Shown here piece by piece: positions 8,160 through 54,596 of a DNA stretch of 64,000 bases. Location of the stretch: assembly GCF_012932215.1 (NCBI RefSeq), contig NZ_CP048788.1, positions 1,426,001-1,490,000 on the forward strand, written 5' to 3'. The notes beneath the pieces were generated by a model. The model was not told the DNA's origin and ran no database searches. It saw nothing but the letters and a program-made list of their open reading frames with translations. How positions within the stretch are numbered: position 1 is the stretch's first letter; each line of letters begins with the position of its first letter. This stretch comes from Roseobacter ponti (lineage in GTDB: Bacteria; Pseudomonadota; Alphaproteobacteria; Rhodobacterales; Rhodobacteraceae). Position numbers and translations under genes: made by a program.

Positions 8160-8189
8160 AAAAAAAAGGGCCGGGCACGCGGCCCGGCC
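8160..8189 (-). terminator. Rho-independent terminator of the candidate sRNA / LysR gene
   Basis: Perfect 8-bp stem GGCCGGGC / GCCCGGCC (8169-8176 with 8182-8189), 5-nt loop, followed on the minus strand by eight T residues (8167-8160). Confidence 0.85.
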
Positions 8190-8240
8190 AAGTCCAACAG
8201 GGAGGTTGAAGAGCAGAGCGCTAACTCTGCCATCTTCAAT
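8160..8240 (-). ncRNA. Candidate small RNA with anti-Shine-Dalgarno CCUCCC loop
   Basis: On the minus strand a compact unit is visible: possible promoter TTGATC (8273-8268), 16 bp, CTATTT (8251-8246); a stem-loop of 13 bp whose arms are TTGAAGA-GCAGAG and CTCTGC-TCTTCAA with a two-base bulge (8239-8206); a single-stranded stretch with CCTCCC (8205-8200), complementary to ribosome-binding sites; then a strong GC hairpin and T-run. The predicted transcript is about 80 nt. The hairpin / CU-rich linker / terminator order is that of many trans-acting alphaproteobacterial sRNAs, though I cannot match it to a named family. It could instead be the processed 3' end of the LysR mRNA, whose stop codon is 92 bp upstream. 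Confidence 0.5.
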
Positions 8241-8331
8241 TGGTGAAATAGGGTGCGTTCTGCCTGCGATCAAGGCAGATTCTGAACTCGCGCATTCATG
8301 GCCGTTATGCAGTTTCTGCATGGCTCATCGG

Positions 8332-49900: not shown

Positions 49901-50577
49901 GCGAGATCTTCATCGACATGCACAAAGAGGGTGCGGGCTTCCGGGCGATGATGAACAACTTCGCCATCGCGGTCTCGGTCGGTCTGCAGTACGGCGTGCC
50001 GCTCGAAGAGTTCGTCGATGCCTTTACCTTCACCAAATTCGAGCCGGCGGGCATGGTGCAGGGCAACGAGACCATCAAAAACGCGACCTCGATCCTCGAT
50101 TATGTGTTCCGCGAGCTTGCGGTTTCCTATCTCGACCGCACCGATCTGGCGCATGTGGCGCCCGAAGGAGCCAGCTTTGACACCATCGGTCGCGGCGAAG
50201 AGGAAGGCGTGCGCAACGTCTCCGAAATCTCCGAGACGGCGGCCACCAGATCGCTGGAAGTGCTGCGTCAGATCAGCTCGACGGGCTATCTGCGCAACCG
50301 CCTGCCTCAGGAACTGGTGGTCCTGCAGGGCGGGGCGGAAGTGCCGGCCACAGCCTTTGACGGGCTGGCACCTCTTGAGGCGACGACGGGCGGTGTTGCC
50401 ACGATGACCACGACAACGGCGGTCGCCAGCGGCTCGGTGAGCATGGACGCGCGCACCAAAGCCAAGATGCAGGGCTATGAGGGCGAGGCCTGCGGCGAAT
50501 GCGGAAACTACACGCTGGTGCGCAACGGCACCTGCATGAAGTGCAACACCTGCGGCGGCACGAGCGGGTGTAGCTGA
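46927..50577 (+). CDS. nrdJ: Vitamin B12-dependent (class II) ribonucleotide reductase
   Basis: Reduces ribonucleotides to deoxyribonucleotides using adenosylcobalamin, independent of oxygen. 1216 residues, the usual length of the large proteobacterial NrdJ. Features in order: N-terminal domain; [18 protein letters not shown]; the substrate-site segment [20 protein letters not shown] (about 460-480); [20 protein letters not shown]; the glycyl/cysteine barrel region; and a Zn-like C-terminal tail [15 protein letters not shown] with later [13 protein letters not shown] carrying the redox cysteines. No intein. GAGG lies 10 bases before the ATG. Codon use is strongly biased to C-ending codons, suggesting high expression. 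A TGATG overlap couples it to the next gene. Confidence 0.96.
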
Positions 50578-51125
50578 TGGGCAGAGAGAAAAAACAACTC
50601 TTTCTGCGGCAAACACGTCTCAGGCGACAGACCGAATACGATCTCGGTGGCAGCGAAGCGATAGGTTGCTTCGGCGGATTGTACATAGTGGGAGAGGAAG
50701 ACGCCACCTACAGTAACTTTAGTGTTGGTGGCGGCCACTTCGGAGTTGTGGCCGATAACACAAAAAACGTGATCGTTGAGGATGCAGAAATAGACGAGTG
50801 CAAAATTCCTGTTACCGCGCACGGATCTGAAAATTTTGCACTGCTGAATGTCAAGATAAACGGTTGGAAATTAACGGATTTTACTGGTGATTTTGATTTT
50901 TTGCACGTGGTCTCTGTTGATGAAGTCTTGCACCTCGGGCAGATACTCAGTGAAGCGGATGTAAAAGACCATCTCGAAATCCTCAAAAGCAACAAGCTGT
51001 ACGATTTCTTGGAAAGTAAGAAGGCGAAAAGGAGCGCTACTGCTATCGCGTTACTCTCCGCGCCGGAGCTTGTCTCCAAGTTTATTGGCCACCTGATTGC
51101 ACTGGCGCAAAACACGGGTGGATGA
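50577..51125 (+). CDS. Unknown protein coupled to nrdJ, AT-richer than neighbours
   Basis: A 182-residue protein starting at the ATG that overlaps the nrdJ stop by one base (TGATG). Residues 1-25 are basic ([18 protein letters not shown]). Residues 25-115 show short repeated strands of the type G-x-Y/F-x-V...N-V-x-V-x-x-A (IGCFGGLYIVGEE, GGGHFGVVADNTKNVIVEDA, FALLNVKINGW), reminiscent of a right-handed beta-helix. Residues 120-182 are predicted helical and end in a hydrophobic stretch (LLSAPELVSKFIGHLIALA). Base composition is visibly more AT-rich than nrdJ, with AAA/GAT/TTT codons, suggesting later acquisition. The structured RNA follows immediately. I do not recognise a family; no catalytic motif is apparent. 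Confidence 0.7.
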   Translation: MGREKKQLFLRQTRLRRQTEYDLGGSEAIGCFGGLYIVGEEDATYSNFSVGGGHFGVVADNTKNVIVEDAEIDECKIPVTAHGSENFALLNVKINGWKLTDFTGDFDFLHVVSVDEVLHLGQILSEADVKDHLEILKSNKLYDFLESKKAKRSATAIALLSAPELVSKFIGHLIALAQNTGG

Positions 51126-51425
51126 AGAAAACGCGTCCCTGGGGGCGTGTAGGGGTCCCGGTCTCAGCCCAAGCGGGCCGGACCCCGACGAACAGGGTGG
51201 GAACGGTACTTTGTTCCTTCCCACCTTTACCGGGGTGGTTCTCAGCGTCTGCTCGCAGACGATCAACGCCACCCCGTCGCCCCGGTGAAGACCCGGAGCG
51301 ACAAACAAGGGGCGGGTGCGCTCGCCCTTGACGACGTTCAGGCCGCAGGCAGAAAAATACCGAGCGGTTAACAAACTGAGCCTGAACGGCGAAACTAACG
51401 GGGTCCTTCGGGGCCCCGTTTTTTC
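51126..51425 (+). ncRNA. Highly structured candidate RNA ending in a strong terminator
   Basis: About 300 nt in which hairpins follow one another: 51131-51150; GGGGTC/GACCCC (51152-51186); GGTGGGAA/TTCCCACC (51196-51225); GGGGTGG/CCACCCC (51232-51275) enclosing CGTCTG/CAGACG; GTCGC/GCGAC (51276-51302); GGGCG/CGCCC (51310-51327); and a perfect nine-bp stem CGTTCAGGC/GCCTGAACG (51335-51388) enclosing an A-rich loop; then the terminator. No frame with coding character crosses it. It does not carry the landmarks of tmRNA, RNase P RNA, 6S or SRP RNA that I know. It may be a stand-alone RNA or the 3' UTR of the gene at 50577. Confidence 0.55.
51397..51425 (+). terminator. Rho-independent terminator of nrdJ/unknown gene/structured RNA
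   Basis: Ten-bp stem AACGGGGTCC / GGGCCCCGTT (one T-G wobble) closed by a TTCG tetraloop (51407-51410), followed by a T-run to 51424. Very stable. Confidence 0.92.
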
Positions 51426-51687
51426 TGCCGATGCGGGCTGAGGGGCCATTTCCGGCGGTTCCGGTGACACCCCGCGTCGTAATTGTGCGGTGCATCTTAT
51501 TGCGCCGTCGGAAACCTGCGAAAATTTGCGGACGCTCCGGAAACCCGGATTTCCGATTATCTCCCGGATCCGCGACAATATCGCCTGATTACGATCATTG
51601 TTTGAACTTTCTGCGCGTCGGCGTGTTGTGCCGGTGAACGCAATGAGGCGCGGGCATCGGTCTGCGCCGTACTGAAAGGAGAAACGC

Positions 51688-52248
51688 ATGACACAGATCA
51701 GTAATGCAAAAATCGCCATTCTCGCCACACACGGCTATGAGAAATCAGAACTTTTCGAACCTAAACGCCAGCTGGAAGAGGCCGGTGCAGAGGTCGTCAT
51801 CGTATCGCCGGAGAAGGGCGAAATCACCAGCTGGGATGATCAGTCCTGGGGCCGCAGTATCAGCGTCGACATGGATATCGCGGACGCCCGCGTCGAGGAT
51901 TTTGACGCTCTGGTTCTGCCAGGTGGTCAGATCAACCCCGACATTCTGCGCACCGACGAGCACAGCGTGAAGTTTGTACGTGACTTCTTCAACACCGGCA
52001 AAACGCTGGCTGCGATCTGTCACGCGCCCTGGATGCTGATTGAGGCGGATGTCGTGCGGGGCCGAAAGGTGACGTCGTGGCCCTCGGTCAGAACCGACCT
52101 CGTGAACGCCGGCGGCGACTGGGAAGACAGCGAAGTTGTGGTTGATGAGGCACTGGTCACCTCGCGCAACCCCGGTGATCTGGACGCATTCTGCGCCAAG
52201 ATCATCGAAGAGGTCCGCGAAGGACGCCACGACCGCGCCGCGGCATAA
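51688..52248 (+). CDS. DJ-1/PfpI-family protein (YhbO-like)
   Basis: 186-residue class I glutamine-amidotransferase-like fold. The nucleophile elbow is AAICHAPWML with Cys111 and His112, and the acidic partner is probably the Glu in GYEKSELFEP. Close to the PfpI/YhbO/general stress protein 18 branch: VVIVSPEKGEITSWD, LVLPGGQINPD, VTSWPSVRTDLVNAGG and LVTSRNPGDLDAF are its hallmarks. Such proteins are reported as stress-induced proteases or glyoxalase/deglycase enzymes. AAAGGAG precedes the ATG by seven bases. It has its own upstream region of about 260 bp and a good terminator, so it is monocistronic. Confidence 0.92.
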   Translation: MTQISNAKIAILATHGYEKSELFEPKRQLEEAGAEVVIVSPEKGEITSWDDQSWGRSISVDMDIADARVEDFDALVLPGGQINPDILRTDEHSVKFVRDFFNTGKTLAAICHAPWMLIEADVVRGRKVTSWPSVRTDLVNAGGDWEDSEVVVDEALVTSRNPGDLDAFCAKIIEEVREGRHDRAAA

Positions 52249-53057: not shown

Positions 53058-54596
53058 TCAGGCGGGCAGATAGATGCGGAAAGCCTCGCGCAGGCGCGCA
53101 TCCAGCGCCGGATCAAACCGCGCAGCCGAGCGGTTGGCAAGGATTTCTTCTTTGCGCGCGGTGGCCCGTTCAATCAGGTCCGGTTTGCCTTTCTCATCCC
53201 ATTCCTTGGGTGACGTCCGGTCGCCGAGCGCCGGATAGACGTGATCGGCTTGCATGCGCCCCAGGGTCTGGCTCGTGCCCAGATAATGCCCCGGCCCGCC
53301 GATGCAGACCTCGCGCATCTGATCAAGCGCCATGGTCTCATCGGACACCTCAATGCCCCGCACGCAGCGCAGTGCCTGGCCGATCAGGTCGTCGCCCAGA
53401 ATGAGCGACTCGTGGCAGAACCCGAGCAGCGAAGCATGCATGCCCGCGGCCTCATAGACCATGTTCAGCCCCGACAGACCCGCCATGACATTCGAGCACA
53501 TCTGCTCCCAGCCGGCCTGCATGTCGGGCAGTTTGGCATCGGCAATACCTGCCGCGGCCCCCCCAGGCAGATCATAGTATTTGTGCATCTGCGCGCAGCC
53601 CGCCGTCAGCAGCGCCTGTTCTCCGGACCCGCCGGTCATCGCACCGGTGCGCAGATCGAGACCAAAGGGCCAGGTGCCGAAAATCGCCGGATGGTCGGGT
53701 TTGACGGCCTGCACATACACCAGACCGGCGAGGCATTCCGCCACCGCCTGAACAATGGCGCCGGCGACGGTGGAGGGCGCTGTGGCCCCGGCCATGCCCG
53801 CCGACAAAAGCAGTACCGGCATGCCATATCTGATGCACTCCTCCATCACGAGGCAGGATTCCGTGGCGAATTTCATCGGCGGCACGACAAAGCAGTTGGA
53901 ATTGCTCATGAAGGGTCGTTCGCGCCACCTGTCCTCGCCGCCTGCGATCATGTGCAGCATGTCGATGGCGGGTTTCACATGCGCAGGGTCATAAAACGAT
54001 GTGCCGATGTGTTTGGTGGTGCCGCTTGTGGTGGCATAGACCGTGTTGAGATCCATTTCGCAGTTGTCGGTGATGTCCCGTGCGACCATCGGGCGCTGCA
54101 GAAAGTGGATATTGTCGAGCACATTGGTGATGCGCGCGGCGTCATGCAGATCCTGCAGCGTGCTTTCGCGATAGTTGCGGCCCAGAGCGTCCACCAGGTG
54201 CACGGCAGCCCCGGCCGTTCCGTAGTGTACCCGGTGGCCTGAGAGATCGAGGTCATGGGCAGGATCCCGGCCGCAGAGAACGATGCGGCGGTTGGCCCGT
54301 GCGATGGCGTCTTCCACGAGCGCGCGCGGAAAGCGGATGCGCCCGTCGGCCCCCTGTTCTGCCCCTGCCGCGGTCAGGTATCCGACACCCGAAGGCGGCG
54401 CATCGGCAAGGCCGATTTCCTCAAGCGCCTGCAGGGCGGCCCCGTGGATGCGGTCCATCTCCGCCGGGGTCAGCGGTTTATACGTACCCCCTTCGAGACC
54501 GGGGCGCACAGGGCGCAGGTGATCGGGCAGAGCGGTGGCGCGGGCGGCGCGCCGGGCGGACCGGCCGCCGCTGCGGGTCTGGGTTTTCTGTGTCAT
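53058..54596 (-). CDS. Trimethylamine-methyltransferase (MttB) superfamily protein, non-pyrrolysine
   Basis: 512 residues, full-length TIM-barrel MttB homologue. Motifs of the family: EMDRIHGAALQALEEIGL near the N-terminus, GTAGAAVHLVDALGRNYRES, NIHFLQRPMVARDI, and the C-terminal GGPGHYLGTSQTLGRM and HVYPALGDRTS. The coding frame is continuous, with no in-frame amber where pyrrolysine sits in methanogen MttB, so it belongs to the MtgB-like group that demethylates quaternary amines such as glycine betaine with a corrinoid protein. No corrinoid-protein gene is adjacent. The N-terminus is Arg/Ala-rich and disordered. A tiny ORF with a good ribosome site lies upstream. Confidence 0.9.
   Translation of the reverse strand: MTQKTQTRSGGRSARRAARATALPDHLRPVRPGLEGGTYKPLTPAEMDRIHGAALQALEEIGLADAPPSGVGYLTAAGAEQGADGRIRFPRALVEDAIARANRRIVLCGRDPAHDLDLSGHRVHYGTAGAAVHLVDALGRNYRESTLQDLHDAARITNVLDNIHFLQRPMVARDITDNCEMDLNTVYATTSGTTKHIGTSFYDPAHVKPAIDMLHMIAGGEDRWRERPFMSNSNCFVVPPMKFATESCLVMEECIRYGMPVLLLSAGMAGATAPSTVAGAIVQAVAECLAGLVYVQAVKPDHPAIFGTWPFGLDLRTGAMTGGSGEQALLTAGCAQMHKYYDLPGGAAAGIADAKLPDMQAGWEQMCSNVMAGLSGLNMVYEAAGMHASLLGFCHESLILGDDLIGQALRCVRGIEVSDETMALDQMREVCIGGPGHYLGTSQTLGRMQADHVYPALGDRTSPKEWDEKGKPDLIERATARKEEILANRSAARFDPALDARLREAFRIYLPA

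Follow-up and report, generated by a model that had tools for sequence, protein, structure and literature searches.

The window, by which we mean the whole stretch of 64,000 nucleotides of Roseobacter ponti DNA analysed here, carries on its plus strand the ribonucleotide reductase gene nrdJ, followed by an ORF of 182 amino acids and, two bases 3′ of that ORF, a structured RNA which ends in a terminator (Table 1). A preliminary description made from the sequence had taken ORF and RNA to be one undescribed module, in which a beta-helix-like protein would be part of an RNA-guided or RNA-inhibited accessory system. The ORF indeed begins with the final base of the nrdJ stop codon (TGATG, a one-base overlap), an arrangement which, judged from the order of the genes, could give nrdJ-driven transcription, and its foreign-looking, AT-rich composition was confirmed, its GC content being 0.479 as compared to 0.621 in the 900 nt at the 3′ end of nrdJ. 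Over 115 codons compared with a relative in a congener (genome G004), the first, second and third codon positions show 53, 37 and 79 changes, respectively, a substitution pattern that points to a coding gene. The resemblance to a beta-helix proved weak, with Pfam Beta_helix at E 0.011 and 15.8 bits against a cut-off of 25.9 and an AlphaFold model whose mean pLDDT of 44.5 was too poor for a fold search, and the protein had no family match in PADLOC, NCBIfam or PHROGs. By eye, the stop codon of the ORF and the bases behind it (TGAAGAAAACGCG) correspond to the context of the nrdJ stop in cargo-free congeners, which reads TGAGGAAAACGCG, TAAGCCAAACGCG and similar.

Table 1. Features at the 3′ end of nrdJ, in positions of the window
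Feature	Position	Strand	Basis
nrdJ, B12-dependent (class II) ribonucleotide reductase, 1216 aa	46927..50577	+	ORF; Pfam Ribonuc_red_lgC, Ribonuc_red_2_N, TSCPD
182-aa ORF, AT-rich, probable cargo	50577..51125	+	ORF list; GC; coding pattern as compared to G004
Stop codon of the 182-aa ORF and next bases, TGAAGAAAACGCG	51123..51135	+	Context of the nrdJ stop in cargo-free congeners; by eye
Block A, conserved in the nrdJ 3′UTR, with two hairpins and GACGAA	51128..51192	+	Covariation, pattern search
Further hairpins, the first (51193-51227) recurring in relatives, the others variable	51193..51304	+	Fold, relatives
Block B: hairpin 51309-51328; long-range stem 51336-51343 with 51380-51387; inner stem 51344-51349 with 51360-51366	51305..51399	+	Covariance model, covariation
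UUCG-capped intrinsic terminator closing block B	51400..51425	+	Fold; covariance model match 51305-51425

The RNA itself was predicted to fold with -151.7 kcal/mol over positions 51126-51425 (z -5.87), and none of 200 shuffles was as good. The long-range stem and the UUCG-capped terminator named in the preliminary description are both present in this fold, while its count of seven hairpins varies with the way in which the fold is counted. As had been stated, none of the usual structured RNAs fits: an Rfam search of positions 50560-51700 gave no match at gathering score, even with matches up to E 5 listed, and the best sub-threshold match, Atu_C8 (RF02502), aligned weakly over its full length to block B and the terminator at 20.4 bits, as against a gathering score of 50, with an E value of 0.37 in a 1.1 kb search. 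An Rfam scan of seven loci likewise gave no gathering-level match at the RNA. Elsewhere in the window, on the minus strand, Rfam gave a match to the small RNA SorX at 8163-8245 (56.8 bits, gathering 46.6) and one to PYLIS_3 at 53447-53545 (41.2 bits, gathering 38); the latter falls within an ORF (53058-54596) and probably reflects conserved coding sequence, not a pyrrolysine element.

A DNA search with the RNA of the window found a match in 31 of 59 genomes, its own included, and the matched RNA consists of two conserved pieces, namely block A and block B, the latter taken together with the terminator (51305-51425). A covariance model of block B, built from 29 sequences, matched 203 of 295 sampled genomes of the family, own genome included, with one copy per genome except in G544 (three) and G560 (two), and 4 of 289 genomes in a class-wide sample, all four from the same family and own genome among them. 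Weaker extra copies were seen in tandem behind the first at two loci, three in L041 (1501-1880) and two in L010 (1501-1790). The core pattern of block B was found in at least 119 stretches of named genomes; among the matches listed, 79 of 80 titles gave Rhodobacteraceae, Paracoccaceae, Rhodobacterales or genera belonging to these groups, and the 80th gave Alphaproteobacteria only. Genomic context was analysed for loci from the DNA search, the class-wide sample and the family model search together with 80 further fetched matches, other matches of the family model being left out. It was established that nrdJ lies directly upstream of block B on the same strand in 136 of 137 loci (the exception, L025, has no nrdJ in reach) and upstream in 110 of 119 named loci among the matches listed; eight of the remaining nine have less than 450 nt of stored upstream sequence, and one (L205) has 3.9 kb but no nrdJ. 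Block B had no match in 92 genomes of the family, and among 20 of these that were checked, 18 possess nrdJ and two are incomplete assemblies, indicating that the RNA can be lost or diverge past the model.

The covariation proposed as a check on the RNA was found in both blocks. In an alignment of block B not fitted to the structure, 96.1% of cells were paired and 72 both-side changes were counted as compared to 21.7 in shuffles, 0 of 500 of which reached 72, while for 135 distinct sequences the corresponding values were 97.9% and 141, whereas 200 shuffles averaged 24.7 and did not exceed 35; pairing among these 135 sequences dropped to 27 to 50% when partners were slid. The long-range stem noted earlier is supported, one of its pairs being TA in 74, AT in 35, CG in 10 and GC in 8 of the 135 distinct homologues, and the core of block B also holds nearly invariant unpaired bases. 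For 52 distinct copies of block A, 95.2% of cells were paired, with 73 both-side changes against a mean of 21.25 and a maximum of 34 in 200 shuffles; block A is less widespread, a pattern having found it in 37 of the 86 loci whose gap between nrdJ and block B measures at least 80 nt. Position, conservation and covariation show block B, together with its terminator and often with block A before it, to be a conserved nrdJ 3′ untranslated RNA of the family: in different genera it is found on the nrdJ strand immediately 3′ of the gene, and its structure is kept by compensatory change, as would characterise a cis-linked 3′UTR RNA.

The protein has an entirely different distribution. In what was apparently the same sample of 295 family genomes as that used for block B, a profile of the 182-aa protein matched one, its own, and a further search found it in 2 of 99 relatives, namely its own genome and congener G004; no kin were found in the viral contigs, plasmids or phages searched. 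A short look-alike at the same place in Shimia aestuarii (L161) has 16% identity to the 182-aa protein and is only suggestive of kinship. The joint module of the preliminary description, with a protein and an RNA that work together, draws on their adjacency in the window and in G004, the gene standing before the RNA in both, so that both known carriers of the gene do have the RNA. The RNA, however, occurs mostly without the gene (203 of 295 genomes as compared to one), and unrelated ORFs occupy the same place in other genomes. While the RNA is real and has no Rfam family, the partnership thus did not stand, nothing points to an RNA that guides or inhibits the protein, and we regard such a system as exceedingly improbable.

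As to the role of block B, the most likely one is to confer stability on the nrdJ mRNA or to give rise, by release, to a 3′UTR-derived small RNA. A cis-acting sensor or protein-binding site which acts on nrdJ termination or translation appears somewhat unlikely: the nearly invariant unpaired core bases resemble a binding site more than a plain stem, and block B starts less than 20 nt from the nrdJ stop in 42 of 229 loci, but it stands behind the gene, beside the terminator, and at distances of up to 919 nt. We know of no ligand or protein for block B. Block B would have parallels in the 3′UTR-derived small RNAs UdsB, UdsC, UdsD, UdsH and SorX of Rhodobacter sphaeroides (PMC8625941), which share with it the 3′UTR position, the terminal intrinsic terminator and the bacterial family; none of them is placed at nrdJ as far as the main text of that paper goes, in which 'nrd' occurs 0 times. 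The HRC-28-1 motif, as described in PMC8632094, is a conserved multi-stem RNA with a terminator at its end and a proposed 3′UTR element, but it occurs mostly in Polynucleobacter and behind another gene, the comparison being one of descriptions. Among titles and the beginnings of abstracts, no open-access paper was recognised as describing an nrdJ 3′UTR RNA or a cargo slot, and 'nrd' or 'nrdJ' occurs 0 times in the main texts of PMC4809877, PMC5107571, PMC8632094, PMC8625941 and PMC6238624. The best reading is that the nrdJ 3′UTR RNA is family-wide and undescribed.

The space between nrdJ and this RNA is variable. Distances range from 2 to 919 nt, and in 229 distinct loci the gap between the nrdJ stop and block B measured less than 20 nt in the 42 mentioned above, 20-79 nt in 53, 80-279 nt in 80 and at least 280 nt in 54, this last class usually containing one sense-strand ORF, mostly AT-rich and from varied families. 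Such cargo ORFs were collected from the 57 loci with a gap of at least 200 nt in which the longest ORF on the sense strand reaches 45 codons; their GC content was below that of nrdJ in 44 of 57 loci, and an antisense ORF was at least as long as the chosen one in 10 of 57, so that part of the chosen ORFs are due to chance. In one locus, L002, there are Ns at the cargo position. The cargo ORFs form 27 clusters, several of which extend across different genera, the largest comprising 11 loci, with one member matching Pfam Peptidase_M78 and PADLOC capP (E 2.2e-17). Among the families in the slot are ImmA/IrrE peptidase, GIY-YIG, DUF2188, DUF3892 and Mrr_N, while others match nothing, and the DUF2188 cargo corresponds to the PADLOC candidate PDC-S16 (E 2.3e-22). 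As to the proposed check of whether neighbours in other genomes are defence genes, other cargos in the slot match the defence models capP and PDC-S16, and the 182-aa protein matches no defence model. A slot at the nrdJ 3′ end hence exists, and the 182-aa ORF of the window is probably a cargo of this kind, with the nrdJ 3′ end as the putative place of insertion.

Behind the cargo, four genomes have a displaced 3′ end of nrdJ that measures 35 to 123 nt and includes the stop codon. At L192 the cargo is followed by another copy of the stretch for the NrdJ C-terminus, 123 nt long with 4 differences, which extends through the stop codon in the direction of block B; L289 (genome G079) has 86 nt of the nrdJ end, 83 of them identical, L301 (G382) 81 nt, all identical, and L158 35 nt with 3 differences. 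The 5′ cut points of the four differ while the 3′ side is whole in all, which fits one crossover with DNA bearing an nrdJ end and indicates no single fixed crossover site. The genomes of L158, L289 and L301 have no block B match, so that cargo, displaced end and native RNA clearly occur together in L192 only. A shuffle test with a 140-nt query, which left out L207 and L238 because their upstream sequence was too short, found a displaced end in 2 of 55 gaps of cargo size as compared to 0 of 80 control gaps. An earlier test with a 60-nt query on 37 loci had given p <0.05 for L158, L005 and L020; the match in L020 falls within the cargo ORF and was attributed to chance, and that in L005, absent from the matches of the 140-nt query, is suggestive only, as is the ORF of L111, which ends in GTSGCS like NrdJ (p 0.26 by shuffling). 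The nrdJ tail pattern was found in 268 of 295 genomes, four of which have two tails: G079 and G382, which are those of L289 and L301, G415, whose second tail lies on another contig, and G074, which was dropped because of a gap filled with Ns in the assembly. The 60-nt query detected no displaced end in the window (p 0.42), although the stop context of the cargo equals that of the congeners' nrdJ, and entry of the 182-aa gene in this manner is what we infer. The displaced C-terminus at L192 is an open frame of 53 codons with its own ATG and might be translated as a free C-terminal piece.

In twelve cargo loci, unrelated ORFs are preceded by a shared structured leader of about 146 nt, which follows nrdJ. 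This leader RNA was observed right after the nrdJ stop in L007, L010, L011, L016, L018, L034, L036, L048, L058, L103, L113, L136 and L157-L159, and by eye also in L301 and L304. Its helices covary, one of them spanning more than 80 columns; a further count of pair types was not above shuffles (353 of 500 reach it). Among 120 genomes of the family, a model of the leader matched 4, in each case immediately behind nrdJ, and it did not match the genome of the window, whose cargo is without it; it matched 0 of 142 genomes of the class sample, a sample without any positive, and no Rfam match to the leader was found in the three carrier loci scanned (L007, L010 and L018). Separately, a double-hairpin module, CTCCGCAG..CCGCTCTGTC, was noted in L148, L149, L153 and L154, in several nrdJ gaps and also, with 4 of 11 matches in 34 genomes, at intergenic sites elsewhere, and resembles a small interspersed repeat. 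The notion that all the hairpins are mobile repeats was rejected: this one variable module does occur elsewhere, but block B is nearly always single-copy.

It seems likely, and we hold it with some confidence, that two independent layers are superimposed here, a family-wide nrdJ 3′UTR RNA and a slot for single-gene cargo at the nrdJ 3′ end. The 182-aa gene would be a cargo that arrived when DNA with a piece of the nrdJ end and a cargo gene recombined with the chromosomal nrdJ end, leaving nrdJ whole with the cargo behind it on the same strand; the old nrdJ end would be pushed behind the cargo and then decay, as the displaced ends in four genomes suggest. This footprint would be expected from a single crossover with a circular molecule or from homology-anchored illegitimate recombination. 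Ordinary drift, by which the space behind nrdJ would tolerate insertions like any 3′ intergenic region, is in our view unlikely. The continuous spread of gap sizes, the junction points that vary between loci and the CTCCGCAG..CCGCTCTGTC repeat at other intergenic sites are in keeping with drift, but it accounts poorly for one gene on the nrdJ strand as the usual content, for cargo families that recur in different genera, for a structured leader common to unrelated cargos and found only after nrdJ (4 of 4 genome matches), and for the displaced nrdJ ends; the frequency of inserts was counted behind nrdJ only.

The cargo slot invites comparison with two known kinds of arrangement. Integron gene cassettes are small single-gene units on one strand that belong to many unrelated families. 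The nrdJ cargos share these traits, and L304, an IMG/VR contig end which looks like bacterial flank judged from its nrdJ end, apparently has two successive cargos (ORFs by eye) followed by a weak block B match of 22.4 bits. Unlike integron cassettes, the nrdJ cargos have junctions that vary. The integron integrase model TIGR02249 was over its cut-off in 0 of 59 relatives and also in 0 of 14 control genomes, so that this search had no positive control. Genomic islands that insert at the end of a gene and restore it, for instance at dusA (PMC4482086), likewise leave the host gene whole and have a direct repeat of the gene end at their far side, a trait of 3′-end integrative elements which L192, L289, L301 and L158 display and which was not detected in the window. 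Such islands carry an integrase, whereas no recombinase was noticed inside the nrdJ cargos, either among the cargo ORFs examined or in the family searches of sample members, and the repeats behind these cargos measure 35 to 123 nt.

More tentatively, the nrdJ 3′ end of Rhodobacteraceae might be an integron-like cargo port without an integron, a possibility we rate below even chances, at which small cassettes that combine one gene with a piece of the nrdJ end, and often with a structured leader RNA as well, would dock by recombination, could stack and would be expressed from the nrdJ transcript, drawing on an exchangeable pool of small, partly defence-type genes of which the 182-aa gene may be one undescribed cargo. 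The nrdJ 3′UTR RNA would add a family-wide structured RNA without an Rfam entry at an essential metabolic gene, and the slot would be a compact place in which to find small uncharacterised and defence-type genes. The displaced nrdJ ends would let one trace how individual genes come to be placed behind a housekeeping gene where no dedicated recombinase was noticed close by.
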